NCBI GenBank assembly: GCA_020725425.1
Contig: DYFA01000037.1
Location: forward strand, 1 to 46,811
Origin: Aneurinibacillus sp.
GTDB lineage: Bacteria; Bacillota; UBA5301; DYFA01
Direction: 5' to 3'
DNA: 46,811 nt
The position numbers were made by a program, and so were the translations under genes. Position 1 is the stretch's first letter. The number at the start of each line of letters is the position of its first letter. The notes under the pieces are model-generated. The model saw only the letters and a list, made by a program, of their open reading frames with translations. It searched no databases and was not told the DNA's origin. Positions 1 to 37,397 of the stretch are shown here, piece after piece.

Positions 1-874
<874 letters not shown>

Positions 875-997: not shown

Positions 998-1024
998 GGC
1001 TGTCCCAAAGGTCTTGGGACAGCC
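998..1024 (-). terminator. Rho-independent terminator of the porin-like gene
   Basis: A perfect 11-bp inverted repeat (GGCTGTCCCAA / TTGGGACAGCC) with a 5-nt loop lies just past the stop of the porin-like gene. On the minus strand it is followed by the T-rich TCTTTCCTTTC. The same AAAGAGGCTGYCCC core recurs in the terminator at 12242-12269. Confidence 0.8.
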
Positions 1025-1049: not shown

Positions 1050-1820
1050 TTAGAAGTACACCGTGCTGGCAAGCTCGAGGCTGCCGTCTCCCGCATCGGG
1101 CTTCGTGTAGGTGGCGCTGAGTTCCACGTCGCCGAGCTTCTTCGTGGCGTTCAGGCTGATCTCCTTGGCCTGGATCTTGTACTCGGCAGTCAGGTCCACA
1201 CCGAGGTTAGCCTTGGCGCCGACGAACTGCTCCCGGGTGTCGCCCTTCATGTCGTACTGGCCGAAGACAGTGAGCTGGTCCTTCACGACCGGGATCGAGG
1301 CGCCGATGGCCATCGCGGCGTCAGTGTCGGCCTCAGCCTTCGAGATGCCGCCGTAGATGACGCCGAAGTCGGCCGTGTACTTGCCCTGGGCCCCGACCTT
1401 CTTGCCGGCGATGTCATACCACCCGATGGCACTGATGTTCTCGCCGAGCTGCGGGTAGAGCGCCACGCCGGTGAAGCCGTGGTTCAGGTTCTCCGCGGCA
1501 TAGTTGTTGCTCAGCATGGAGAAGTCCTCCACCTGCTTACCGACGAGGAGCTTGCCGAACTCGGTGTTGGTGAACCAGTAGGCCCGCTTCAGAGCGACCG
1601 GAGCACCAGTCGTGGTGTCGTTCTCGAAGCGGATCCGGGCTCCCGACTTCTCGCTCACAGTCGAGTCGAACTGCAAGCGGTAGCCGTTGGAGGTGGTCAG
1701 GGTCTTCGCCAGAAGGTCGTCGACGTTGAACCATACCTTACCGGACATCTTGGTCTCGGCCGCAAGGGCCATCGAGGAGAGCGCCAACACGAGGGTGAGT
1801 GCGATAAGAACCTTCTTCAT
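1050..1820 (-). CDS. Exported beta-barrel (porin-like) protein
   Basis: The 256-residue protein has a clear signal peptide (MKKVLIALTLVLALSSMALA, predicted cut before AETK). The rest alternates polar and hydrophobic residues in short amphipathic strands separated by Gly/Asp/Asn turns, such as RLQFDSTV, GVIYGGI and VELSATYT. It ends in ...LASTVYF; a terminal Phe closing the last strand is the hallmark of outer-membrane barrel proteins recognised by BamA. The ATG at 1820 is chosen because TAAGGAGGACAACC precedes it, although the frame stays open further upstream. The gene sits alone between lonB and lonA with its own terminator. It could instead be a beta-rich cell-surface protein of a monoderm; no SLH domain is visible. 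Exact substrate and family are not recognised. Confidence 0.7.
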   Translation of the reverse strand: MKKVLIALTLVLALSSMALAAETKMSGKVWFNVDDLLAKTLTTSNGYRLQFDSTVSEKSGARIRFENDTTTGAPVALKRAYWFTNTEFGKLLVGKQVEDFSMLSNNYAAENLNHGFTGVALYPQLGENISAIGWYDIAGKKVGAQGKYTADFGVIYGGISKAEADTDAAMAIGASIPVVKDQLTVFGQYDMKGDTREQFVGAKANLGVDLTAEYKIQAKEISLNATKKLGDVELSATYTKPDAGDGSLELASTVYF

Positions 1821-2033
1821 GGTTGTCCTCCTTAGTGCGACTTGTAGTGCGATTCTTGGTCTGGTTCGGGTCTGCATCTCCCCCGCCGGAGCGCACTAGG
1901 TGGCACCTCCTTTCTTCTCCTTCCGGGGTGAGATTACGTTTACATAATTCAGGCGCCAGGCGCGATTCCCTTTGAGAACATACTTCCTGCAATGGAAGAG
2001 AGCCGCCAGTGCAGGCGGCCCGGTGGCTGGGTT
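1821..2033. other. Leader/intergenic region upstream of the porin-like gene
   Basis: This 213-bp gap follows the lonB stop. Besides the SD of the porin-like gene at 1824-1833 it contains a second strong SD-like AAAGGAGGTG (minus strand, around 1905-1915). That site is followed by a TAG and an in-frame GTG, but no convincing leader ORF. An AT-rich patch (AATTATGTAAAC on the minus strand, around 1934-1945) may hold the -10 element; no good -35 partner was seen. Confidence 0.3.
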
Positions 2034-3758
2034 CTAGCAGGAGAGCGGTGGGCCGGGACGCGGCGCCGGCAAGGGCAGGGCGACCGGCGGCGCAGCCGGG
2101 GCGGCGGCGGCCACCTCGGCCTCCGACCACCGCTGGCCGGCGAACGGGTTGCCGAGGATCGCCTCCTCGATCACCTGGCGGATGTGCTGGACCGGCTGGA
2201 CGACGATCCCCTCGAGGTTCGAAAAAAGGTCCTGGTTGTTCTCCTGGGGAATGAGCACCCGCTTGGCCCCCGCCTGACGGGCCGCCATAACCTTCGGGAC
2301 GATCCCCCCCACCGGCTTTACATAACCGCGGATGGACACCTCGCCGGTCATCGCCACCAGGTTGTCCACGGGGTGGCCGGTGATTGCCGAATAGATGGCG
2401 GTGACGATCGCCACCCCGGCCGAAGGGCCGTCCACCGGTGTCCCGCCGGGGAAGTTGACGTGCAGGTCGTAATCGCACGGGTTCAGATTGAAGCACTTCT
2501 TCAGCACGGTCAGGACGTTCTCCACCGAGCCCCGGGCCGTCGACTTGGAGCGCAGGGTCCGGCCGACCGCTCCCACCTCTTCCTCCTCGACCACGCCGGT
2601 GACCATCAGCTTCCCCTTGCCCTTCTCGGCCGGCACCGCCGATGCCTCAACCTCCATCAGCGCCCCCAGGTTCGGTCCGAAGACGGCCAGCCCGTTGACC
2701 AGCCCCACCTGCGGCGCCGCCGGCACCCGGCGCTCGGGCCGCGGGCTGTACTGGCCGCTCTGCACCACCCACTCGATGTCGGACTGGCGGATGGTCTTTC
2801 CCCCCTCGGTTAGGGCCAGCCCCGCCGCCACCTGGACCATGTTGACGGCGTCCCGCCCGTTCGTGGCGTAGTGCTTGAGCACTTCAACCGCCCCGTCCTC
2901 GATCGCGAAGTCGATCTTCTTCACGGCGTTGCGGGCGATCGTCTCGACTTCCTCCGGCGTCAGGGCCCGGAAGAAGATCTCCAGGCACCGCGACCGGATG
3001 GCTGGGGGGATTTCGTGGGGCTGCCGGGTCGTGGCGGCGACGAGGCGGAAGTCCGCCGGCAGCCCGTTCTGGAAAATGTCGTGGATGTAGGCCGGGATAT
3101 TGGTGTCCTCGGAGGAGTAGTAGGCGCTCTCCAGGAACACCTTCCGGTCCTCCAACACCTTGAGCAGCTTGTTCATCTGGATGGGATGCAGTTCGCCGAT
3201 CTCGTCGATGAACAGAATCCCGCCGTGGGCCTTGGTGACCGCCCCAGGCTTGGGTTGGGGAATCCCCGCCATTCCCAGGGGGCCGGCGCCCTGGTAGATG
3301 GGATCGTGCACCGAGCCCATCAACGGGTCGGCGATGCCCCGGTCGTCGAAGCGGGCCGTGGTAGCGTCGACCTCGACGAACTTGGCGTCGGCTCGGAAGG
3401 GCGAAAGCGGGTTCTTCTTGGCCTCCTCCAGCACCACCCGGGCCGCAGCGGTCTTCCCCACCCCCGGAGGGCCATACACGATCACGTGCTGGGGATTGGG
3501 CCCGCACAGGGCAGCCCGGAGCGCCTTGACCCCGTCTTCCTGCCCGATGATCTCGGACAACTGGGTCGGGCGGGTCTTTTCGGACAGCGGCTCGCTCAGG
3601 CTGATCGCTCGCAGTCGCTCCAGCTTCTCCAGCTCCTTCCGCGACTCCCGGTCGATCGCGCTGCGGGATGTCTGCTGCGCCCGCAGGAGGTTCCAGAAGT
3701 AAAGGCCGATCACCACTGTGAAAAAGAGGCTGATCAGGCCGAAGAAGTTCCCGGTCAC
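2034..3758 (-). CDS. lonB: Membrane-anchored ATP-dependent protease LonB
   Basis: Sporulation-associated Lon-type protease; in Bacillus subtilis LonB is forespore-specific and membrane-bound. A single N-terminal membrane helix occupies residues ~4-23 (FFGLISLFFTVVIGLYFW). The AAA+ module follows, with Walker A GPPGVGKT at 96-103 and Walker B LFIDEIGE at 181-188. The C-terminal Lon protease domain carries the catalytic Ser445 (DGPSAGVAI) and Lys488 (PKVMAARQAG). The GTG at 3758 is preferred over the ATG at 3836 because GGAGAGGAGGG lies just upstream and the membrane helix then starts at the N-terminus, as in the family. The 574-aa length is normal, with a Pro/Ala-rich tail. A strong terminator separates it from clpX, so it is transcribed independently. 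Confidence 0.93.
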   Translation of the reverse strand: MTGNFFGLISLFFTVVIGLYFWNLLRAQQTSRSAIDRESRKELEKLERLRAISLSEPLSEKTRPTQLSEIIGQEDGVKALRAALCGPNPQHVIVYGPPGVGKTAAARVVLEEAKKNPLSPFRADAKFVEVDATTARFDDRGIADPLMGSVHDPIYQGAGPLGMAGIPQPKPGAVTKAHGGILFIDEIGELHPIQMNKLLKVLEDRKVFLESAYYSSEDTNIPAYIHDIFQNGLPADFRLVAATTRQPHEIPPAIRSRCLEIFFRALTPEEVETIARNAVKKIDFAIEDGAVEVLKHYATNGRDAVNMVQVAAGLALTEGGKTIRQSDIEWVVQSGQYSPRPERRVPAAPQVGLVNGLAVFGPNLGALMEVEASAVPAEKGKGKLMVTGVVEEEEVGAVGRTLRSKSTARGSVENVLTVLKKCFNLNPCDYDLHVNFPGGTPVDGPSAGVAIVTAIYSAITGHPVDNLVAMTGEVSIRGYVKPVGGIVPKVMAARQAGAKRVLIPQENNQDLFSNLEGIVVQPVQHIRQVIEEAILGNPFAGQRWSEAEVAAAAPAAPPVALPLPAPRPGPPLSC

Positions 3759-3910
3759 CCTGTACCCTCCTCTCCCGGACCGTCGGCAACGTTCGGCCCC
3801 CGGCGGCGCTCCCCTCGCCAGGAGCCGGAACGACATTTTCCCAGCTAAAGCCGGGCTCCCTGGTCGCTAGTATTATCTCCCCCCCTATCTGCCCTCATCC
3901 TGCCCGCGCC

Positions 3911-7476: not shown

Positions 7477-7716
7477 ATGAGTTTCAAGGACATGGAAGAG
7501 CGGGCCAAGGACAAGCTGAAGAAGGAGGTGGCGCAGGAACTCGGCCTCGACGACGATTTAAGGGATCCGGACGAGCTTACCGTACGGGAGGCGGGAAAGA
7601 TCGGCGGGCAGATGGTCAAGCGTCTGGTCGAGAAGGGTGAGGAAAAGCTGGCCGCTGAGCAGCTGACCTCCCGAGTCCCGGCGCCGGGTACAGGGGCCGG
7701 CTCGGAGGCACCGTGA
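7477..7716 (+). CDS. Small acid-soluble spore protein, alpha/beta-type
   Basis: A 79-residue protein that would coat and protect DNA in the spore core. The N-terminal half contains LKKEVAQELGLDDDL, matching the K-E-I-A-x-E-L-G segment of clostridial alpha/beta SASPs. The conserved DNA-binding helix reads REAGKIGGQMVKRLVE (about 44-59). A Pro/Gly/Ala tail follows. The ATG at 7477 has AGGGGAGGTGAG directly upstream. It is monocistronic, divergent from tig and convergent with tRNA-Leu. It is the most direct evidence that the organism forms endospores. A forespore (sigma-G) promoter is expected but was not identified with confidence. Confidence 0.82.
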   Translation: MSFKDMEERAKDKLKKEVAQELGLDDDLRDPDELTVREAGKIGGQMVKRLVEKGEEKLAAEQLTSRVPAPGTGAGSEAP

Positions 7717-9330: not shown

Positions 9331-10414
9331 GACGCCGCTCCTTTTTTCGCCGCCGGAGTGCCAGGAACCAGAGCAGTCCGATCCCCGGGTAGAGGACAAA
9401 ACTGGTCAGTTGCTTCACCTCTTCGTCGACCCAGTGCACCGTTTCCATAAGACTTCCGGGAAGGTAACCGAAGAGCCACGCCCCGACCGCCAGGAGCGGG
9501 ACCAGGGGACGGTACTCGTCCAGCTTGAGCAGGTCGGCAACCAGGAGGCAACTGGCCCAGAACATCACGCTAAGGGTAAGGAAGAGGGCTGTGGTAAAGA
9601 GGAAGACGAAGACCGATTCCAGATTGCTGATGAAGGGTCCCAGGTAGACCGCCCGGCTTCCTTCGGCGGCCGGTGCGGGAAAGTGGGTCAGCGTCGGGTA
9701 ACCGAAGAGCGCCAGGAGGGCCGAGGTCACTATGGTGAGGACCAGGGCGCTCCAGGCGATAGCCCGAACCCCTATCTTCACGACTTCCGCCCGCCGGCGC
9801 AGGTAGGGGAAGAGGACGGCCACCACCCACGCCTCGCGGTACCAGCCGGAGAAAGCGCTCCAATACAGCGTGGACTGCCAGCCGAACCCCAGCGGCGGGA
9901 AGAAACGGGTGAAGTCCATCCTGGGGAGAGTAAGGAGCAGGAGGATGAACACGACCGTCACGATGGGCAGGAGCAGGACCATGGCGCTCCGGGCGATCGC
10001 CTCGAGACCCAGAACGGCGGCGTAACTGAAGACCAACACCGTCGCGCCCTCGACGACGGTGATCGGAGTGTTCGGGAGGATGCCGGTGATGATCGCCCCT
10101 CCCATCTGACGCGTGTGCAGCGCCACGATGCCGAAGAAATAGGCTGCGATCACGGCACCGATCAGGGTGCCCGCCGGCCCCGCCAGCCGTTCAAACTGCG
10201 CCACCATCCCCTCCTCCCGCTCCGGGTCGAGGCTGCTGAAGAGCATCCAGCCCAGGCCCATGGAGAGCAGGCCGTTGACCAAGACCATCAGGGGTGCGGC
10301 GGTCGCCGTGTGCTGGGCCGCCACCGCCGGCTGGCTAAGGAAGATCTTCCCCGCCGTGGCTGCCACCGCCACGATGATCGCCTCCGTCCGGCCGAGATGC
10401 CCCTGACGGATCAA
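9320..10414 (-). CDS. gerB: Spore germination permease-like subunit, GerAB/YndE family
   Basis: Polytopic inner-membrane subunit of the germinant receptor, from the amino acid permease (APC-like) superfamily; it binds or senses the germinant. About ten hydrophobic segments run through the 364 residues. The TTG start at 10414 is chosen because it overlaps the gerA stop (TTGA) and is preceded by GGAGGTGG. It also gives the family's normal length, with the first helix around EAIIVAVAATAGKIF. An upstream in-frame start would add 22 residues lying inside gerA. A Lys/Arg-rich tail (RRRKKERRH) ends in the cytoplasm. Confidence 0.92.
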   Translation of the reverse strand: MIRQGHLGRTEAIIVAVAATAGKIFLSQPAVAAQHTATAAPLMVLVNGLLSMGLGWMLFSSLDPEREEGMVAQFERLAGPAGTLIGAVIAAYFFGIVALHTRQMGGAIITGILPNTPITVVEGATVLVFSYAAVLGLEAIARSAMVLLLPIVTVVFILLLLTLPRMDFTRFFPPLGFGWQSTLYWSAFSGWYREAWVVAVLFPYLRRRAEVVKIGVRAIAWSALVLTIVTSALLALFGYPTLTHFPAPAAEGSRAVYLGPFISNLESVFVFLFTTALFLTLSVMFWASCLLVADLLKLDEYRPLVPLLAVGAWLFGYLPGSLMETVHWVDEEVKQLTSFVLYPGIGLLWFLALRRRKKERRHAC

Positions 10415-12135
10415 ACAGAACCACCTCCGGAAGGATCCGGGCCGCCCTGTCCTGCCGGCGGCTCCGGCCCGGCGGACCACCTCCGGGCGACCGGCGGCTG
10501 CCGCTCCTCGTCCTGGGGCCGGACGAAGGCCGGCCGTCCCTCCATGCTCTGGAGGAACCCGCGCACGACGACATCCGGCGAGCCTGGACGGAAAGGCCCG
10601 ATAGGGGAGAGATAGGGCACGCCGAACCCCTGCAGCGACCCCAGGTGGAGTAGGATCAGGAACATGCCCATCGAAATGCCGAAGAACCCCGCCAGGGAGG
10701 CCAGCAAGAGCAGGATGAACCGGTTGATGCGGAGGCTGAAGCTGGTGCTGTAGTTGGGGATGCAGAAGGACCCGAGCCCGGTCAGGGCCACGACCACCAC
10801 CAGCAGCGGGCTGATCAGGCTGGCCGAGACAGCCGCCTGGCCGAGGATCAGCGCCCCCACGATGCTTATTGTGCCCCCCATGACGGAGGGGATGCGCAGC
10901 GAAGCTTCCCGGACCAGTTCGAAAGAGAACTCCATTAGGATGACCTCGAAAACGGTGGGGAATGGCACCTGCTCCCGGGAGGCGGCGATGGACAGGAGCA
11001 GCGGAGGCGGGATCATCGCCTGGTGGTAGGTGGTAGCAGCGATGTACAAGGCCGGCAGGAACAAGGCCAGGAACATGGCCAACAGGCGCACCCAGCGGGC
11101 GAACGTGCCGAAGGGCCAGCGCAGGTAGTAGTCGTCGGCCGAATGGAAAAAGGCGGTAAAGGTGGCGGGCACGACCAGGGCAATAGGGTTGTTGTCCACC
11201 AGGATGACGACGTATCCCTCGGCCAGGAAGCCTACTGCCCGGTCAGGCCGCTCGGTGGTGAGAATCTGCGAAAAGAGCGAATTCGGCCGGTCCTCGACGA
11301 GCTGCTCAAGGGTGCCCGAGGCCTGGAGGTGGTCCACGCTGATGCCGCGTAGCCGCCGGCGCACCTCCTCGACAAGCTTCGGATTGGTCAAGCCGCGGAG
11401 GTAGACCACCGCCACATCGGTGCGGGAGAGGCGCCCGACCTGGAGATTCTCTATGGTGAGGTCCGGCGTCCGCAGCCGGCGCCGGATGAGAGCCGTGTTG
11501 GTGCGCAGCGTCTCGGTGAAGGAGTCAAGCGGGCCGCGCACCCCCGGCTCCTCCTGTGGCCGGCCTACGGCGCGCTTCTCCCACCCCTTGCTCTCGATCA
11601 GCAGCACCTCGCGACTGCCGTCGAGGAAGAGGGCGGTCATGCCGGAGAGGACTTTCTCCAGCGCCGCCCCGAGGTTGCGCTCCCGGGAGATGGCCGCCCC
11701 CGGCGCCAGCCGCTCCTCCACGGCGCAGAGCAGGTCGCCCTGGGAGGCTTCGGGGCGCAGCTTCGCCAGGAGCATCAACGGTTCGAGCACCGACTCGCTC
11801 ACCGTCATGCGGTCGGCCAAGCCGTCGATGTAAAGGAGGAACGCCCGGCGCCGCGGCTTGAGCGCCAGTTCGAAGTCGCGGATCACCACGTCGGAGTTGC
11901 GGCCGGTGTCCAGTTCCACTTGAATGCGCTCAAGGTTCTGGTCCAGGTCGGCGGAGAGGTCGGGCGGCCTGGACTCCTCCGACCTGGAGGGCCGGGATTC
12001 CGGGGCGGGGCGCTCGCCGAGGGAAAACTGGCGCGGCGGACCCTCGCGCCCCGGATCGATACCGCGCCAGAGGCGCCGTAAGACATCCAGGGGCGACGCG
12101 GGCGAGGACGGCGGCTTACGCCGATTCCCGGCCAT
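10411..12135 (-). CDS. gerA: Spore germination receptor subunit GerAA/GerKA
   Basis: Largest subunit of the germinant receptor. The soluble N-terminal half (about 1-300) contains the family blocks NSDVVIRDFEL and VVYLRGLTNPKLVEEVRRRL. The membrane half follows with several helices (RLLAMFLALFLPALYIAATT, PPPLLLSIAASREQVPFPTVFEVILMEFSFELVREA split by turns, and GTISIVGALILGQAAVSA). The first ~60 residues are a poorly conserved Pro/Arg/Ser-rich extension, and the C-terminus is also Pro/Gly-rich. The ATG at 12135 directly follows the TAG of a tiny leader ORF; the nearest SD-like AAGGAG is 15 nt away, so translation may depend on coupling. The gene order A-B-C with start/stop overlaps is the standard ger operon. 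Confidence 0.93.
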   Translation of the reverse strand: MAGNRRKPPSSPASPLDVLRRLWRGIDPGREGPPRQFSLGERPAPESRPSRSEESRPPDLSADLDQNLERIQVELDTGRNSDVVIRDFELALKPRRRAFLLYIDGLADRMTVSESVLEPLMLLAKLRPEASQGDLLCAVEERLAPGAAISRERNLGAALEKVLSGMTALFLDGSREVLLIESKGWEKRAVGRPQEEPGVRGPLDSFTETLRTNTALIRRRLRTPDLTIENLQVGRLSRTDVAVVYLRGLTNPKLVEEVRRRLRGISVDHLQASGTLEQLVEDRPNSLFSQILTTERPDRAVGFLAEGYVVILVDNNPIALVVPATFTAFFHSADDYYLRWPFGTFARWVRLLAMFLALFLPALYIAATTYHQAMIPPPLLLSIAASREQVPFPTVFEVILMEFSFELVREASLRIPSVMGGTISIVGALILGQAAVSASLISPLLVVVVALTGLGSFCIPNYSTSFSLRINRFILLLLASLAGFFGISMGMFLILLHLGSLQGFGVPYLSPIGPFRPGSPDVVVRGFLQSMEGRPAFVRPQDEERQPPVARRWSAGPEPPAGQGGPDPSGGGSV

Positions 12136-25147: not shown

Positions 25148-26119
25148 ATGGAAAAGCTGGCCAGGATTGCCGAAGAGCGACGGGAGGAGCTCTTCGCCCT
25201 GCCCAACGTAGTTGGCGTGGCGGTGGGATACAAGCGGCGGGGCGGGGCCGTAACCGACCAGCCCTCAGTAGTGGTCCTGGTGCGGAAAAAGGTTCCCTTG
25301 GCTCAACTGGCACCGGATGAGGTCATCCCGTCAGAGGTCGAGGGGGTTCCGACCGACGTAGTGGAGGTCGGCGACCTCAAGGCTCTGGAAGCGCTGCCCG
25401 AGGAGCCTGACCCGGAGGCCCACCGGCGAAAGCTCCGGCCGGCGCGTCCCGGCATCAGCATCGGGCACTTCCGGGTCACTGCGGGGACCCTGGGAGCGGT
25501 GGTCTACGACCGGGAGTCCGGAGAGCCGCTGATCCTCTCGAACAACCACGTGTTGGCCAACAGCCAGACCCCGCGCGGTCGCCGGGCGGCTATCGGCGAT
25601 CCGGTTTACCAGCCCGGGCCATACGACGGAGGAACTGCCGCCGATACCTTGGCCACCCTCCACCGCTACGTTCCGTTGCGTTTTCCGACCCGCCGCCCGG
25701 CTGCTGCCTCCCGGTCAGCCGCTCCGGCTCTGAACCAGGTGGACGCCGCCGTCGCCCGGCCCCTCTCGCCCGAGCTGTTGCGGCCGGAGATCCTCGGCCT
25801 GGGCCAGCTGACCGGGACTGCGGCGGCGGAACTGGAGATGCCGGTCCGGAAGAGCGGACGGACGACCGGCTGCACCAACGGGAAGGTGACCGCACTGCAC
25901 GCCACCCTCCGGGTGGGATACGGAGAGGGCCGGACGGCCACCTTCGTCGATCAGATCGTACTGGAACCGATGTCCCAGGGGGGCGACTCAGGCTCTCTGG
26001 TCATCGACGCCGCCGGCCGGGCGGTGGGGCTCCTCTTCGCCGGCTCGCCTTCGGCGACCATTGCCTCGCCCATCGCCGCTGTCCTGGAAAGCCTCCGGGT
26101 AACCTTCAGCGCGCCGTAA
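25148..26119 (+). CDS. Trypsin-like serine protease without signal peptide
   Basis: A 323-residue protein with a chymotrypsin-fold protease domain. The triad is His134 (LSNNHVLAN), Asp199 (NQVDAAVARP) and Ser281 (GGDSGSLV). It is preceded by a ~100-residue N-terminal domain (NVVGVAVGYKRRGG, PSVVVLVRKKVPLAQL, VIPSEVEGVPTDVVEVG) of the kind found in bacterial NAL1-like trypsin-domain proteins. No signal peptide or membrane helix is visible, so it should be cytoplasmic, or in the mother cell or forespore. The ATG at 25148 has GGAAGGAGG eight bases upstream. It stands alone on the plus strand, divergent from the cell-wall amidase and convergent with the GGDEF gene. Substrate is unknown. Confidence 0.85.
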   Translation: MEKLARIAEERREELFALPNVVGVAVGYKRRGGAVTDQPSVVVLVRKKVPLAQLAPDEVIPSEVEGVPTDVVEVGDLKALEALPEEPDPEAHRRKLRPARPGISIGHFRVTAGTLGAVVYDRESGEPLILSNNHVLANSQTPRGRRAAIGDPVYQPGPYDGGTAADTLATLHRYVPLRFPTRRPAAASRSAAPALNQVDAAVARPLSPELLRPEILGLGQLTGTAAAELEMPVRKSGRTTGCTNGKVTALHATLRVGYGEGRTATFVDQIVLEPMSQGGDSGSLVIDAAGRAVGLLFAGSPSATIASPIAAVLESLRVTFSAP

Positions 26120-30130: not shown

Positions 30131-32491
30131 TCACCCGGCGGCCCCGCCGCCGAGCAAGAGGTCGCCGAGGAGCGCCTGCCCCAGGCTCAACCCGCCGTCA
30201 TTGGGCGGAACCTGGCGGTGGAGGAGCACCTCGAACCCCTCCCGGGTCAAAGCGTCATGCAACTGACTCACGAGATACCGGTTCTGGAACACCCCGCCGG
30301 AGAGCGCCACCTTCTGGAGCCCTGTCTCCCGGCGCAGGCACTCGAGGCCGGCCAGGATCATCTCCCGGACGGTATGGTGGAACCGGGCGGAGATCACCGC
30401 CGCAGCCGTGCCCCGGGACGCCTCCTCCACCACCGCCGGCCACAGGGGGGCAGGGTCGATCACCCAGCCGCCACCTTCCTCCCATACCGTAAAGGGATAC
30501 CGGTCATCCGGAAAGACCGCCGGGCGCTCCTTATGGAGCCGGGCCTCCAGCTCGATCGCCGGCTGCCCCTCGTAGTGACCCTCCCGGCAGACCCCCGCCA
30601 GGGCCGAGACCGCGTCGAAGAGCCGGCCGGCGCTCGAACACTGCGGAGAATTCAACCCCAACGGCAGCTGGAGGCGGAGGACTTCCCCTTCCTGGGCCGT
30701 CCAGGGCGCCACGCCGGCCTGTTCGGCCGCGGCCACCGCCTTCTCCCCGCCGGCGGTCCAGAGATAGGCGAAGGCCATCCGCGCCGGGTGATGGATCGCC
30801 GCCTCTCCGCCGGGCAGGGGGGTGTAGCGCAGGTGTCCACGCCGGGCGAAGTGCGGCGGAGCCCCGACAAAGAACTCAAACCCCCAGAGCTTCCCGTCCC
30901 GGCCGTATCCTGTGCCGTCGCAGACCACTCCGAGCACTGGTTCCTCCACTCCATGCTCAGCCAGACAGGAAGCGAGGTGAGCTTCGTGGTGCTGTACCCC
31001 GAGGAGCGGAAGCTTTCCTTCGTACCAGCGGTGCGCCAGCTTCGTCGAGCGGTACTCCGGATGGAGGTCATGGACCACCGCTTCCGGACTGATTTCAAAG
31101 TACCCGGCGAGCCGCCCCAGCGCCTCCTCGAGAAACGCCAGGGAGCGGAGGTCGCCCACCTCCCCGATGTGCTGGGAGAGGTAGAAGCGCTGCCCGGCAG
31201 TCAGGCAGAAGGTGTTCTTCTGGTCCCCGCCGATCGCGAGCACCGACCGGAGTGCCCGCCGGTACTCCAGGGGCTGAGGGGCGTACCCCCGGGACCGGCG
31301 CAAGAGAAGCGGCCCCCCGGCCACCGTCGCCACCACCGAGTCGTCGCACCGGTTATGGATGTCCCGGTTGTGGAAGAGGAAGGCGTCGGCGATCCCGGCA
31401 AGCTCCCGCGCCGCTTCGGCGTTGTCGATCACCAGGGGTGAATCGGAAAGGTTGCCGCTCGTCGCCACTAGGCAGTCCAGGCCCTCCTCGAACAAAAGCG
31501 CGTGCAACGGTGTGTAGACCAGCATGACGCCGAGCGTGTCCACGCCCGGCGCCACCGCCTCGGCCAGTGGCTGCTCCGGGTCGGGGCGCTTCGGCAAGAG
31601 GACGATCGGCCGCCGCCAGGACGCCAACAATTCCCGGGCCGCCTCGTCGACCAGGCCGTACCGTTCCACCGCGGCCAAGTCCGAACACATCAGGGCGAAG
31701 GGCTTCGCCTCCCGGTGCTTTCGCTGCCGCAGCGCCTCGACGGCCGCTGGCTGGTGGGCGTCGCAGACCAGGTGGAACCCGCCGATCCCCTTCACCGCCA
31801 GGATCTTCCCGGCCTTCAGCAACTCCCTCGCCCGGGCGAAAACCTTCGCCTGGTCAGCTGCCTCTTCTGGAAGCGGCTCCTTGAGGCCGGCCGGGTTCGC
31901 GATCTCGTCGGCCAGCCGGAGAAAGGCCTTGGGGCCGCAGACTGGGCAGGCATTCGGCTGGGCGTGGAACCGCCGGTCGCCCGGGTCCTCGTACTCGGCG
32001 GCGCACTCGGGGCACATCGCGAACCTGGCCATGGTCGTCCGCGGCCGGTCGTAGGGCAACGACCGGACGATGCTGAACCGCGGTCCGCAGTTGGTGCAGT
32101 TGATGAAAGGATACCCGTGCCGCCGGTCCCGGGGGTCCTGCTGCTCGGCGGCACACTCGGCGCAGAGCCCGATATCCGGGGCGATCAGCACCGAGGGCCG
32201 CTCACCGGCCTCGCTCTCCACGATGGTGAACTCCCGGTATCCGCGGAGTTCCTCCCAGTTCAGCTCGGAACGGATGATTCGGGCCAAGGGCGGGGCTTCT
32301 TCCGGCAGCGCGGCGTAAAAGCCGCGCACCACCTCCTCCTTGCCCTCGACCTCGATCACCACGCCGTGGACGTCGTTGTACACGATGCCCGGCAGCTGCC
32401 ACTTGCGGGCCAGGCGGTAGACAAAGGGGCGGAACCCTACCCCCTGAACGATTCCGCCCAGCCGGATGATGCCGCGCCGGCGTCCGTTCAC
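30131..32491 (-). CDS. hypF: Carbamoyltransferase HypF
   Basis: Converts carbamoyl phosphate and ATP to carbamoyl-adenylate and passes the carbamoyl group to HypE. Domains in order: acylphosphatase (GGIVQGVGFRPFVYRLA, about 12-28 onward); two zinc-finger-like pairs (LCAECAAE with INCTNCGPRFS, then MCPECAAEY with ACPVCGP); a YrdC-like adenylation domain (LAVKGIGGFHLVCDA, LVATSGNLSD); and a Kae1-like carbamoyltransferase domain (GVQHHEAHLASCLAEHG, VALSGGVFQNRYL). The GTG at 32491 overlaps the hypB stop (GTGA) and places the acylphosphatase domain at the N-terminus; the in-frame ATG at 32542 would overlap hypB by 55 nt. Length is 786 aa. Confidence 0.96.
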   Translation of the reverse strand: MNGRRRGIIRLGGIVQGVGFRPFVYRLARKWQLPGIVYNDVHGVVIEVEGKEEVVRGFYAALPEEAPPLARIIRSELNWEELRGYREFTIVESEAGERPSVLIAPDIGLCAECAAEQQDPRDRRHGYPFINCTNCGPRFSIVRSLPYDRPRTTMARFAMCPECAAEYEDPGDRRFHAQPNACPVCGPKAFLRLADEIANPAGLKEPLPEEAADQAKVFARARELLKAGKILAVKGIGGFHLVCDAHQPAAVEALRQRKHREAKPFALMCSDLAAVERYGLVDEAARELLASWRRPIVLLPKRPDPEQPLAEAVAPGVDTLGVMLVYTPLHALLFEEGLDCLVATSGNLSDSPLVIDNAEAARELAGIADAFLFHNRDIHNRCDDSVVATVAGGPLLLRRSRGYAPQPLEYRRALRSVLAIGGDQKNTFCLTAGQRFYLSQHIGEVGDLRSLAFLEEALGRLAGYFEISPEAVVHDLHPEYRSTKLAHRWYEGKLPLLGVQHHEAHLASCLAEHGVEEPVLGVVCDGTGYGRDGKLWGFEFFVGAPPHFARRGHLRYTPLPGGEAAIHHPARMAFAYLWTAGGEKAVAAAEQAGVAPWTAQEGEVLRLQLPLGLNSPQCSSAGRLFDAVSALAGVCREGHYEGQPAIELEARLHKERPAVFPDDRYPFTVWEEGGGWVIDPAPLWPAVVEEASRGTAAAVISARFHHTVREMILAGLECLRRETGLQKVALSGGVFQNRYLVSQLHDALTREGFEVLLHRQVPPNDGGLSLGQALLGDLLLGGGAAG

Positions 32492-33162
32492 CGGGTTATC
32501 CCCGCCGCCTTCTGCTTCCGCTGCACCTCGTCTACGAGCCATGCCACTACCGCGTCCATCCCCTGCCCGGTCGTGGCGACCGTCTCGAAGAGCCTTTGTT
32601 GCGGGTTCATCGCCACGAGCTCCCGCTTCACCCGCGCCAGGTCGAACCGGAAGTAGGGCAACAGGTCGATCTTGTTCAGGAGCACCGCCGCGGCCCGCCG
32701 GAAGGTAGCCGGGTACTTCGCCGGCTTGTCGTCGCCTTCCGGGATGGAGAGCACGACCATCTTGGCGTCCTCCCCGAGGTCAAAGTCGGCCGGGCAGACC
32801 AGGTTGCCCACGTTCTCGACCAGAAGCAGTTGGGTACCCTCCAGGTCCAGACTTTGCAGGGCCCGCTCGACCATCCGAGCGTCCAGGTGGCACCCGCCGA
32901 AGGTGTTGATCTGGTGCACCGGGATTCCGTACCGCGCCACCCGCTCGGCGTCAAGCGAGGTCGTGATGTCCCCCTCGATCACCGCCAGGCGCACTTTATC
33001 CTTGAGGAGGGCGCAGAGGCGTTCGACTACCGTGGTCTTGCCGGCGCCGGGCGAACTGATGAGGTTGATGGAGTAGACGCCCCGCCGGGCGAATTCCTCC
33101 CGGAGCCCCTGGGCGATGGCGGCGTTGGCGCCGAGCACGTTGGCCTGAAGGTTTATTTCCAC
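32488..33162 (-). CDS. hypB: Hydrogenase nickel-incorporation GTPase HypB
   Basis: GTPase that, with HypA, inserts nickel into the large-subunit precursor. P-loop NLISSPGAGKTT is near 33-44, then VIEGDITTSLDAERV, a metal-site TFGGCHLDA, VENVGNLVCPADFDLGE and the NKIDLLPY G4 motif. The GTG at 33162 is chosen for GGAGGAGG upstream and because it yields 224 residues starting VEINLQANVLGAN, the usual family start. The longer frame to 33252 has no support. It lacks the N-terminal histidine-rich nickel-storage region seen in some HypB proteins. Confidence 0.95.
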   Translation of the reverse strand: MEINLQANVLGANAAIAQGLREEFARRGVYSINLISSPGAGKTTVVERLCALLKDKVRLAVIEGDITTSLDAERVARYGIPVHQINTFGGCHLDARMVERALQSLDLEGTQLLLVENVGNLVCPADFDLGEDAKMVVLSIPEGDDKPAKYPATFRRAAAVLLNKIDLLPYFRFDLARVKRELVAMNPQQRLFETVATTGQGMDAVVAWLVDEVQRKQKAAGITR

Positions 33163-33191
33163 AGCCTTTTCCTCCTCCAAAGCCTGCCCCC

Positions 33192-33200
33192 ATTGTACCA
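33192..33200 (-). promoter_or_regulatory. Possible internal extended -10 promoter before hypB
   Basis: TGGTACAAT on the minus strand fits TGn plus a TACAAT -10. It lies 30 nt upstream of the hypB start, in the only gap of appreciable size (95 nt) within the hyp genes. No -35 is evident. Confidence 0.35.
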
Positions 33201-33257
33201 CAATGCCTTCTGCCCGCGCTAGCGCCCCCTTAGGCATGGGCCGGGAGCTCACCCCTG

Positions 33258-33599
33258 TTACTCAGCCAGCAGGTGTTCGATATACAGCTCGTTCCCGCCG
33301 GTCTGTTGCGTGTCTCCGGAGCCGCAGGCCGGGCAGAGGAAGGAGTAGTTCTCGACGGCGAACCGGTGGCCGCAGGCGCGGCACTCCGCCGTGACCGGGC
33401 GGGTCTCGATGACGAGCTTTGAGCCGGCGGCCGGCGTCTCCTGTGTGGCCACCTCCCAGCAGAACTCGAGCGCCTCTGGGACCACGTTGGAGAGCTCCCC
33501 CACCACCACCTTCACTTCAGTCGCCCTGGTCAGGCTCCGTTTCGCCAGCTCTGCCTGGACTATGTCCACGATGGAGGTGGCGATGGCCAGTTCATGCAC
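33258..33599 (-). CDS. hypA: Hydrogenase nickel metallochaperone HypA
   Basis: A 113-residue zinc protein that delivers nickel. The N-terminal MHE nickel motif is intact (GTG-CAT-GAA). The zinc site is two CxxC pairs (ECRACGH, LCPACGS). The start is a GTG at 33599 with AAGGAG eight bases upstream; the MHE requirement fixes it. It is the first hyp gene, separated from the structural genes by a terminator-like hairpin. Confidence 0.96.
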   Translation of the reverse strand: MHELAIATSIVDIVQAELAKRSLTRATEVKVVVGELSNVVPEALEFCWEVATQETPAAGSKLVIETRPVTAECRACGHRFAVENYSFLCPACGSGDTQQTGGNELYIEHLLAE

Positions 33600-33636
33600 G
33601 GGGCTTCTCCTTCCTGCCGGTTGACGGAAAAGGCGA

Positions 33637-33660
33637 CCCGCCGCGGTCTCCCGCGGCGGG
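33637..33660 (-). terminator. Strong hairpin between hydrogenase structural and hyp genes
   Basis: A perfect 10-bp stem CCCGCCGCGG/CCGCGGCGGG with a TCTC loop. On the minus strand TCGCCTTTTCCG follows, so it can act as a partial terminator or mRNA-stability barrier within the operon. Confidence 0.6.
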
Positions 33661-33675
33661 CTCGTCGGTGAGTCG

Positions 33676-34137
33676 TTAGAGTTCCGCCAGTATCAGCTCG
33701 ATCGCCTGGTCGATCTTCTCGGCCACCTCCGGGCTGAGCTCCAGCCCCACCTCGATGACCTTGGGCTCACACCCGATGACTACGACCTGCTCGGGCCGTT
33801 CACCCAGCTGCTCCAGCGCCTCGAGCACCTGGTAGAAGTCCACCTGGTGCAGGGAGTCCATCGGCATCCGCTTGACCCCGAGCTCCCGGGTGTCGAACCG
33901 GTAGAGGGCTCCCGGTGGCCCGCCGCCTTTGACGGTGTCCACCACGACTACCTTCTCCGCCTCGGCGATCGGGTTCATCAGGGCGAAGCCGGCGGTGCCT
34001 CCGTCGAGGAGGGTGACATCCGGGGGGAGGGGCACCCGGCGTTCTTCCATGGCTTGGATGACCCTCACCCCGAACCCTTCATCCTGCAAGAGGATGTTGC
34101 CGACTCCCAGCACCAACACCCGCCACTTCTTGGCCAT
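33676..34137 (-). CDS. Hydrogenase maturation endopeptidase (HyaD/HybD family)
   Basis: Clips the C-terminal tail of the large subunit after nickel insertion. The HybD-type nickel ligands are present: Glu20 (LLQDEGFG), Asp67 (VVDTVK) and His97 (DSLHQVDF). VLVLGVGNILLQDEG is the family start. Length is 153 aa. The ATG at 34137 directly follows the cytochrome b TAG (TAGATG). Its substrate should be the large subunit encoded two genes upstream. Confidence 0.95.
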   Translation of the reverse strand: MAKKWRVLVLGVGNILLQDEGFGVRVIQAMEERRVPLPPDVTLLDGGTAGFALMNPIAEAEKVVVVDTVKGGGPPGALYRFDTRELGVKRMPMDSLHQVDFYQVLEALEQLGERPEQVVVIGCEPKVIEVGLELSPEVAEKIDQAIELILAEL

Positions 34138-34725
34138 CTAGTCCTCGTACCCGGTGATGATGCCCTTGAACAGGTGCAACCCGTTGTAGAGCCCCAGGTA
34201 CACGTGGATCAGGGTGGTGATGGCAAAGAGCCAGGCACCCAGGAAGTGGAACGTGCGCAGCCACTGCATCCCACCGAGGAATTGGCGGGCCGATGGCAGG
34301 TAGAAGTATAACCCGAAGCCGGTGACCGCCTCGAAGATCAGCAGGAAGAGCCACATGGTGTAGGTCAACCGCTGTCCCGGGTTGAGGTGACCATCCTTCG
34401 GCTCGGTCTCCCTCAACCACAGGTAGTAAGCGAACAGCGGACCCAGGTCCTTGAAGTGGCGCCAGTAAAACCAGATCGTCTTGTAGTAGCCCGTCACGAT
34501 GGCGTGGTAGACCTTCGCGATCAAGTTGAAAACCACCACGTACATCGAGATGAAGTGGACGATCCGCGCCCCGTTCATCGCTCCCGGGAAGGCGAACGAT
34601 GCGGGATAGTGGATGTAGAACCCCGACCAGATCAGCAGCAGGATGCACGCAGCGTGGACCCAGTGCATGATCCGGATCGCCAGCGGCTGGTCCGGGGTCC
34701 GGACGGCGGCTTTCGCCGTTGCCAT
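34138..34725 (-). CDS. Ni/Fe-hydrogenase b-type cytochrome subunit
   Basis: Integral membrane dihaem cytochrome that accepts electrons from the small subunit and passes them to the quinone pool. Four hydrophobic helices are visible (about 20-37, 55-78, 120-142 and 155-180). Candidate haem histidines are in IRIMHWVHAAC, RIVHFISMY, VYHAIVTGYY and TLIHVYLGLYN. Length is 195 aa. The ATG at 34725 has a weak GGAGG about 12 nt upstream. It stands between the large-subunit and protease genes, the standard order. Confidence 0.93.
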   Translation of the reverse strand: MATAKAAVRTPDQPLAIRIMHWVHAACILLLIWSGFYIHYPASFAFPGAMNGARIVHFISMYVVVFNLIAKVYHAIVTGYYKTIWFYWRHFKDLGPLFAYYLWLRETEPKDGHLNPGQRLTYTMWLFLLIFEAVTGFGLYFYLPSARQFLGGMQWLRTFHFLGAWLFAITTLIHVYLGLYNGLHLFKGIITGYED

Positions 34726-34755
34726 AGCTCACGCCTCCTTCCGCTCGTTCCCCAC

Positions 34756-36291
34756 CTAGACTACTCTGAACGCGGCAGCCTTTTCAGGGTTCTCCAGATC
34801 AACCACGTGGACTGCGCAGGCGATGCACGGGTCGAAGGAGCGCACCACCCGGCAGATCTCTACCGGCTGGGTCGGATCCTTCACCGGCGTGCCCACCAGG
34901 GCCTCCTCCATCGGGCCCCGCACACCGTTGGCGTCACGCGGCCCGCCGTTCCAGGTGGTCGGCACGACCTGCTGGTAGTTCTTGATTCGGCCGCCCTCGA
35001 TCACGATGTGATGCGAGAGCGCTCCCCGAGGAGCTTCGGCGAAGCCGTGACCTTCGCCCGAGTGCGGGTTGTAGGCGGTGAAGGTCGGCCCGTCGAGTTT
35101 CAACTCGGTCACCCAGCCCAGCATGGCGTCGGCGACCACCTTGGCTTCGAGCGCCCGGGCGGCGATCCGCGCCAGGACGGACGGCCCGATGTTGAGCTTC
35201 TGCGCCAGGTTGAGGAGACCGGCATCCTGCTTGACGAGCATCCGGGCGAGCGGGCCGACTTCCATCGGCTTGCCGTCGTAGCGCGGCGCTTTGAGCCAGG
35301 AGTACTTCTCGCCGTCCTTGGCGTGCTCGCCGAAGCTCTTGTACTCGGGTTCGGTCTCGCCATGCAGCGGCTGCTTGGCCTCGGCGCCCTTGTACCAGGA
35401 GTGCGCCACGTGCTCCGCCACCTTTTCGATGTCGGCCTCGACCACGTTGGCGATGTCGCCGCCGAAGATAGCACCCCGCGGCAGGAGCTGCTTTTTCGGA
35501 TCCATAGAAGCATCCGGGAAGTCGCCCCAGGCCAGGAAGTTGCCGCAGCCGACGCCGATCTTCCCGTAGTCGAGGTAGTAAGGCGCCACCGCCAGGACCA
35601 GCGGGATGTGCTTGTTGTCGATGAAATCTTGGGCCTCCTTGATGTAGCCCACGAGCTGCGAAATGATCGTCGGGGTCAGCTTCACGGTCACGCCGCCCGG
35701 GACCATCGACATGGCATGCGGGAACTTGCCGCCCAGGAGCGCCAGGGCCTCGTTGGCCCGGCGGTAGACCTGGAGCGCTTCGACGTACTGCGCCACGGCT
35801 TCGATGTTGGCCTCCACCGGGAGCCGGTAGTCGACGTTGTACCGCGGGGTGAACGGCGCCGTGTCGCCGGCAGCGATCAACGACTTGATCTCGTTGAGCC
35901 GGGAGTCGTTCCCCTTGTACTGGGCCACGGCGGTGACGTCGACGTAGTCGAGCGCCACCAGGTGATAGAAGTGCAGCAGGTGGGAGTTGATGTACTGGAA
36001 GCCCTCGATGAGGTTCCGCACCAAGCGGGCGTTGTCCGTGAGCTTAAGCTTGTAGGCGTCCTCGATCGAGCGCGAGGAGGCCATGCCGTGTGGGATCGGG
36101 CAGACGCCGCAGGAGCGCTGGGTCACGAGCCAGGCGTCCTCCGCCTTCCGGCTCCGCAGGATCAGCTCCAGGCCCCGAAAGAGGGTGCCGGAGGTCCAGG
36201 CGTCCTTGACCTTGCCGTTTTCCACCTCGACCTCGACGCGGAGGTGGCCCTCAATTCTGGTCAGCGGATCGACGGTAATGAATTGAGACAT
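34756..36291 (-). CDS. [NiFe] hydrogenase large subunit
   Basis: Catalytic subunit holding the NiFe(CN)2CO site. L1 motif RSCGVCPIPH (Cys61, Cys64) and L2 motif DPCIACAVH near the C-terminus (Cys489, Cys492) supply the four nickel-binding cysteines; no selenocysteine or replaced Cys is present. A 16-residue tail after His495 (VVDLENPEKAAAFRVV) is the expected substrate of the maturation protease. Length is 511 aa. It begins MSQFITVDPLTRIEGHL. The sequence type fits the membrane-bound, H2-uptake group 1 enzymes (inference from subunits and motifs). The ATG at 36291 lies 17 nt after the small-subunit stop. Confidence 0.97.
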   Translation of the reverse strand: MSQFITVDPLTRIEGHLRVEVEVENGKVKDAWTSGTLFRGLELILRSRKAEDAWLVTQRSCGVCPIPHGMASSRSIEDAYKLKLTDNARLVRNLIEGFQYINSHLLHFYHLVALDYVDVTAVAQYKGNDSRLNEIKSLIAAGDTAPFTPRYNVDYRLPVEANIEAVAQYVEALQVYRRANEALALLGGKFPHAMSMVPGGVTVKLTPTIISQLVGYIKEAQDFIDNKHIPLVLAVAPYYLDYGKIGVGCGNFLAWGDFPDASMDPKKQLLPRGAIFGGDIANVVEADIEKVAEHVAHSWYKGAEAKQPLHGETEPEYKSFGEHAKDGEKYSWLKAPRYDGKPMEVGPLARMLVKQDAGLLNLAQKLNIGPSVLARIAARALEAKVVADAMLGWVTELKLDGPTFTAYNPHSGEGHGFAEAPRGALSHHIVIEGGRIKNYQQVVPTTWNGGPRDANGVRGPMEEALVGTPVKDPTQPVEICRVVRSFDPCIACAVHVVDLENPEKAAAFRVV

Positions 36292-36308
36292 GTGTCATCC
36301 TCCCTTCC

Positions 36309-37397
36309 TTACGCCTCGGTCTTGGCCGACGGCTTGTGCTCGGAGGCTTCCTTGCCTTTGCCGAACCGCCCGAAGGAGGCACCCAACACCGCATGGCCCA
36401 GGATGCCTACCACTGTGGCCGCGCCGACCACCGCACCGATCGTGTCGGCGCTGGCGCGCACCGAGCCGAGTTTCACGTCAGGCAGCCGGTCGTAGAACGG
36501 CATAAAGCGATCGGGCCAGCCGGGCTCGGTGCAGCCGATGCAGCCGGCGCCAGCCTGGATGCACCAGGCCTTGCCGGAGTTCCATCGCACCTGCGGGCAG
36601 TTGGAGAAGACGTTCGGCCCCTTGCAGCCTACCTTCACCAGGCAGTAGTCCCGGGTCTCCTCCTTCTGGCCGAAGACCTCGACGTACTTGCCCTCGTCGA
36701 ACGACGCCCGGCGCGGGCAGTTGTCGTGGAGGCACTGACCGTAGATCGCCACCGGCCGCAGGTCCTTGTCGAGCTTGGGTACCGCGCCGGTGAGCAGAAC
36801 CTGGACGACGGTGGCCAGCAGCCAATTCGGGTTCACCGGGCATCCCGGCAGGTTGATGACCTTCTCCGGCCCGATGAGCTCGGAGACCGGCTTCACGCCG
36901 CCTGGATTCGGGCTGGCGCCGGGAATTCCGCCGTACGCGGAGCAGGAGCCGACCGCCAGGACCGCCGCGGCGCCCGCCGCCGCTTCCTTGAGCCAGTCGA
37001 CCATCTGCTTGCCGCCGAACATCCCGTAGCCTTCCTTGGTGGGAACGACGCCTTCAACAACGAGGAAATACTTGCCGGCCTCAGTCTTGATCGTTTCTTC
37101 CAAAGTCTTGTCAGCCAGCTCGCCCTGGGCCGCCATGATCGCCTCATGATACCGGATAGACAGGCGGTTCAGAACCACATCCACAGCGGTCGGAGAATCG
37201 GCATTCAAAAAGGAGCAACTGCAGCCGGTGCAGGATCCCATCTCCAGCCAGACCAGGGGCGGCTTCTTGGCGCTCTCCGCGAGGACCTGGGCCACCTGTG
37301 GAACTGAGAGCTCGGAGAGGCCGAGGGCCGCCGCGACGCCGCCGCAAAGCTTCAGGAAGTCCCGGCGGCTGATTTCGTGGAACAGTTCACGACTCAC
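36309..37397 (-). CDS. [NiFe] hydrogenase small subunit, Tat-exported and membrane-anchored
   Basis: Electron-transfer subunit. The twin-arginine signal SRRDFLKLCG (10-19) shows export of the folded heterodimer. The proximal cluster starts with SCTGCSCSF (Cys56, Cys59). Later cysteines lie in VGSCSAYGG, LPGCPVNP, HDNCPRR, VKVGCKGPN, NCPQVRWN and WCIQAGAGCIGC. The Cys in WCIQAG, at the position that is Pro in [3Fe-4S] enzymes, suggests an all-[4Fe-4S] chain. The extra proximal cysteines of O2-tolerant enzymes are absent (CTGC and AYGG). A C-terminal membrane helix (about 320-345) ends in a Lys-rich tail. The GTG at 37397 has AAAGGAG ten bases upstream. It is the first gene of the hydrogenase-hyp operon. 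Confidence 0.97.
   Translation of the reverse strand: MSRELFHEISRRDFLKLCGGVAAALGLSELSVPQVAQVLAESAKKPPLVWLEMGSCTGCSCSFLNADSPTAVDVVLNRLSIRYHEAIMAAQGELADKTLEETIKTEAGKYFLVVEGVVPTKEGYGMFGGKQMVDWLKEAAAGAAAVLAVGSCSAYGGIPGASPNPGGVKPVSELIGPEKVINLPGCPVNPNWLLATVVQVLLTGAVPKLDKDLRPVAIYGQCLHDNCPRRASFDEGKYVEVFGQKEETRDYCLVKVGCKGPNVFSNCPQVRWNSGKAWCIQAGAGCIGCTEPGWPDRFMPFYDRLPDVKLGSVRASADTIGAVVGAATVVGILGHAVLGASFGRFGKGKEASEHKPSAKTEA

Follow-up and report, generated by a model that had tools for sequence, protein, structure and literature searches.

Outer membranes in the Bacillota have been described for the classes Negativicutes, Halanaerobiia and Limnochordia (PMC11448272; PMC11456536), and a sporulating diderm, Acetonema, is known among them (PMC5007114). 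In the best-studied diderm Bacillota one envelope protein, OmpM, combines an SLH domain, a coiled coil and a 16-strand porin in one chain, and it has been proposed to act as both tether and nutrient channel (PMC10628300). Two further barrels of V. parvula, which are not OmpM proteins, were predicted to be 10-stranded and are not considered general porins (PMC10628300). A different arrangement was described for Thermotoga, where the pair OmpA1/OmpB (Omp-alpha and Omp-beta) sets a protein with an SLH domain, a coiled coil and a C-terminal stretch of about 20 hydrophobic residues next to a separate porin (PMC3387000).

The gene considered here, at 1050..1820 on the reverse strand, lies in a window (the whole stretch of 46,811 nucleotides that was analysed) which is contig C23 of a 2.38-Mb genome assembled in 72 contigs, 96.9% complete and with 1.74% contamination. 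Its product, a porin-like outer-membrane beta-barrel protein of 256 amino acids, is very probably a small stand-alone channel protein of the outer membrane in a diderm, probably endospore-forming member of the Bacillota. The ATG at 1820 is preceded at good spacing by a Shine-Dalgarno sequence, AGGAGG (1827..1833, reverse strand, read directly), and is the likely start; the position 1877 given in the list of open reading frames belongs to a longer frame. The translated N-terminus, MKKVLIALTLVLALSSMALAAET, has the appearance of a signal peptide, MKKVLIALTLVLALSSMALA^AET, and the segment assigned to it, MKKVLIALTLVLALSSMALAA (1758..1820, reverse strand, residues 1 to about 20/21), was read directly with an inferred cleavage site. 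The pattern MKK...AA is conserved in the alignment of the family, such that sequence reading and family conservation agree on a Sec signal. The mature part comprises about 235 residues (25.4 kDa, pI 5.0), and the protein has no cysteine. Its last strand, ...DGSLELASTVYF followed by the stop codon (1050..1088, reverse strand), is a candidate for the signal recognised by BamA: in the C-terminus ...LELASTVYF the last residue is Phe, and positions -3, -7 and -9 are hydrophobic, whereas -5 is Ser. The terminal Phe is common to the paralogue described below, to the homologues in the related genomes G006 and G001, and to BamA, TamB and other candidate outer-membrane proteins; a C-terminal Phe, Trp or Tyr occurs in 2 of the 27 other genes of the window. 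A Pfam search found no SLH or other wall-binding domain in the 256 residues; the protein is thus not an SLH-OmpM, and therefore not itself a tether.

The barrel character was addressed by counting windows of alternating hydrophobicity. The mature protein contains 14 such non-overlapping windows, against 7.5 ± 1.9 in 500 shuffled sequences, one of which reached as high a count; the excess is also significant in the paralogue and in the G001 homologue, and is absent from five cytoplasmic proteins of the window (ClpX, ClpP, LonB, trigger factor and GS). The test is specific rather than sensitive and does not detect every barrel, as it misses the organism's own BamA (z = 0.4). Signal peptide, amphipathic strand pattern and C-terminal Phe, on which the preliminary description had based the likeness to a porin, are therefore present, by sequence reading and by the shuffle test. 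The Pfam family Porin_4 (PF13609) of Gram-negative porins matches weakly, at 29.1 bits, only 2 bits above the cut-off of 27. The two are alike in signal peptide, strand repetition and terminal Phe, whereas the present protein is shorter, with about 235 mature residues against a profile of 310 positions, and its paralogue and its G006 and G001 homologues match no Pfam family. A PDB sequence search among solved structures gave no match below E = 0.07. Two AlphaFold2 runs on the single sequence reached pLDDT values of 35.7 and 35.6, too poor to judge a barrel, the C-terminal strands being moderately better in the second. No relatives were found in viral contigs or in PHROGs.

By a simple hydrophobicity rule, the count of windows translates into a crude prediction of roughly 12-14 strands; a narrow barrel of 8-10 strands, or a structural outer-membrane protein lacking a conducting pore, could be drawn as an alternative. 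The mature length of only about 235 residues would suit such a narrow structural or adhesive barrel, comparable to the 10-strand protein FNLLGLLA_00833 of V. parvula, one of the two mentioned above (PMC10628300). However, for 14 amphipathic windows in this length a barrel of 12-14 strands is a better fit than one of 8-10, albeit by a rough count, and we regard a barrel without channel function as the rather unlikely, though by no means negligible, reading. For the preferred channel protein, the signal peptide supports Sec export, after which an OmpH/Skp-like chaperone might escort the chain through the periplasm and BamA might insert it by way of the strand with the C-terminal Phe; both components are encoded in the genome, and their use by this protein is presumed. 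The predicted barrel of 12-14 strands would then allow small solutes to diffuse across an LPS outer membrane.

A search of the genome for bamA, recommended in the preliminary description, with its absence as the refuting outcome, located BamA on contig C50 (59127-59984; Omp85, 163.7 bits; NCBIfam BamA equivalog TIGR03303, 299 bits at a cut-off of 297). Around it on the same contig are encoded TamB, OmpH/Skp, LpxD, LptF/G, an LptC-like and an LptA-like protein, and a candidate LptD-like protein with a weak N-terminal match only; LpxC is found at C50:44936, and the ATP synthase (atp) operon follows further on. BamA and the Lpt and Lpx genes thus share a common cluster, which resembles the one described for diderm Bacillota (PMC5007114), and its gene order recurs in other members of the class. 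The gene immediately upstream of tamB encodes a SpoIVB-type Peptidase_S55 (L128:1-1935, reverse strand), which places a protease of sporulation type next to the outer-membrane cluster. BamA, LpxC, SLH proteins and Spo0A were each found in 7 of 7 genomes of the class, the present one and six uncultured relatives, and in every one of these genomes Spo0A_C is matched by two or three different genes. In the window itself, the alpha/beta SASP (7477-7716), the germination receptor GerA (10411-12135) and LonB (by Pfam) were all confirmed as initially reported, so that Spo0A, SASP and germination receptor genes of an endospore former stand together in this genome.

The organism is, as read from its genes, a diderm member of the Bacillota equipped for an LPS outer membrane. 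The proposal of a diderm sporulating lineage gains its support from BamA, TamB, OmpH, LptF/G, LptA, LptC, LpxD and LpxC together with Spo0A. Its counterpart, an unrecognised beta-barrel or surface protein in a monoderm spore former, had in its favour that LonB and the spore genes are classically associated with monoderms and that ClpX, taken alone, resembles the ClpX of monoderm Bacillota; it is rejected on BamA, LpxC and the Lpt/TamB/OmpH cluster, with BamA and LpxC present in all seven class members, and its probability is minimal. Just as remote is the explanation that the window or the contig with the outer-membrane genes is a contaminant of a mixed MAG, the porin or the outer membrane being foreign to the spore genes. 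The fragmentation into 72 contigs and the 1.74% contamination would permit it, yet porin, LonB, GerA and SASP lie together on the window contig, tamB has the Peptidase_S55 gene immediately in front of it, and a single contig carries both the atp operon and the outer-membrane genes. Furthermore, the order of the outer-membrane genes is repeated in other class members, Spo0A, BamA and LpxC occur together in all seven class genomes, and trees of LonB and of ClpX+LonB both place the window with the class.

An Omp85 match was found in 77 of the 299 genomes sampled from the phylum. The LonB tree recovers the class as one clade (support 91). A branch with support 92 (unstarred) separates this clade, 13 further BamA-positive genomes and two named MAG sequences from the 11 BamA-negative genomes; named Limnochordia were not part of this set, so the class is not assigned to Limnochordia. 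The ClpX+LonB tree also recovers the class, one member of which, G003, is GB_MAG18_067 (4260 bp identical). Compared with Acetonema longum (Negativicutes) and the class Limnochordia, the outer-membrane genes are a shared feature; sporulation has been shown in Acetonema, whereas the present uncultured genomes form a class-level group of their own that is, judged by its genes, probably endospore-forming. The two-membraned spore former is therefore a kind already known but little studied, and the points of note are the class, its small stand-alone porin family and a possible split between tether and channel. An uncultured class-level group with outer-membrane and sporulation genes in every member examined bears on the question whether the ancestor of the Bacillota had two membranes.

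The position of the porin gene had been called unusual, and this holds. It is placed between lonB (2034..3836, reverse strand) upstream and the N-terminal part of lonA (2..874, reverse strand, running off the window) downstream. The lonB-lonA alignment gap amounts to 1328 bp in the window, whereas in 55 other loci, the one of G003 among them, it measures 159-595 bp; likewise, no insert separates the two genes in the four further class members that have both (G001, G002, G005 and G006). No functional link between the porin and Lon was seen, and the gene is equipped with a ribosome-binding site of its own and, on its 3' side, with a strong hairpin. The latter, an 11-bp perfect inverted repeat, GGCTGTCCCAA/TTGGGACAGCC, with a weak U tract (998..1024, reverse strand; -35.9 kcal/mol, z -3.45), is probably the 3' hairpin or terminator of the porin gene; it was not among the terminators called in a consensus scan, and a similar hairpin is visible 3' of the paralogue. 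A scan for sigma-70 promoters of the gene found nothing.

The paralogue, 42-43% identical, occupies C27:5798-6568 and is flanked by cimA and a fumarylacetoacetate-hydrolase-like gene, these neighbours being named by reading of their sequences. With the gene in the window the genome thus has two paralogues, and within the class they belong to a small family of stand-alone porins: G006 has a relative at 26% identity, and G001 a stand-alone relative of 302 amino acids, found with the porin profile at an hhalign probability of 97.4% (E 9.6e-12, 238 columns). The matches in G002, G003 and G005 are weak and cover little beyond the N-terminus. G004 has the start of a porin after a cimA-like gene, at a contig end, and because of this shared neighbour the cimA side is probably the older location. 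The copy between lonB and lonA is a genome-specific second member of the family and forms no special unit with the two genes; it is likelier a later than an original arrival, and not a recent one, since its identity to the paralogue is only 42% and its GC3 of 0.89 is that of its neighbours.

A canonical SLH-OmpM, i.e. an SLH domain over the cut-off and a barrel in one protein, was not found in the genome, and its site, bounded by the Lpt genes on one side and the atp operon on the other, holds neither an OmpM nor an SLH/coiled-coil gene. At this site G002 and G003 encode an OmpM of SLH domain, stalk and barrel (L200:9025-10911; L198:17483-19431, the latter running off its contig), and G006 a protein of 230 amino acids with SLH domain and coiled coil that ends in a hydrophobic helix (L201:7138-7830); the SLH stalks of G006 and G003 are clearly similar. 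The present genome has three such Omp-alpha-like proteins with a hydrophobic C-terminal helix, on C15 (L195:7099-7785, reverse), C24 (L196:6013-6855, reverse) and C71 (L197:6557-7288, forward), with relatives across the class. Proteins of this kind occur in at least 6 of the 7 class genomes, the candidates in G003 being profile matches only. In addition, a barrel protein of 545 amino acids on C50 (22591-24228, reverse strand; L194:10591-12228) has a divergent SLH domain below threshold, with E 1.3e-9 to the stalk profile. It has a Pro/Ala-rich linker, lies downstream of atpC, and is possibly a degenerate OmpM.

In this context it was considered whether the porin arose as a free-standing copy of an OmpM barrel by loss of the SLH stalk. 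A genome devoid of any protein joining a barrel to an SLH domain over the cut-off, in which SLH stalks without barrels occur, would accord with such an origin; yet the porin profile, run against the OmpM and OmpM-like sequences of the class, gave hhalign probabilities of 0.2-7.8, i.e. no detectable similarity, while the same profile finds the G001 porin at 97%. Such a descent is hence improbable. Both are barrel proteins of an LPS outer membrane in Bacillota, but the porin has neither SLH domain nor stalk and no detectable similarity to the OmpM of the class. Its setting resembles that of Thermotoga, in that a stand-alone porin with terminal Phe and SLH/coiled-coil/hydrophobic-helix proteins are encoded in the same genome; Omp-beta is, however, about 42-45 kDa and encoded next to ompA (PMC3387000), whereas the present protein is about 25 kDa and unlinked, and the two are likened by their plan. 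Along these lines, we suggest tentatively, and at somewhat less than even confidence, that the jobs are split as in the Thermotogae, with the three Omp-alpha-like proteins tethering the wall and the stand-alone porins, the gene and its paralogue, taking up solutes. The confidence is limited because the C-terminal helix may sit in a membrane other than the outer one and because the divergent protein of 545 amino acids may still act as a tether. Such a split, if true, would separate tethering from nutrient uptake, two functions for which a genetic link has been proposed, and would supply an intermediate stage in the loosening and loss of outer membranes in the Bacillota. With a family of stand-alone porins in diderm Bacillota, the tether-plus-channel claim for OmpM can also be tested in a second lineage.

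Elsewhere in the window, positions 30131-37397 encode the large and small subunits of a [NiFe] hydrogenase, a cytochrome b, a maturation protease, HypF and a CobW/HypB-type protein, and at 25148-26119 (forward strand) a trypsin-like protein matches the NARROW LEAF 1 N-terminal domain (NAL1_N), a family named after plants.
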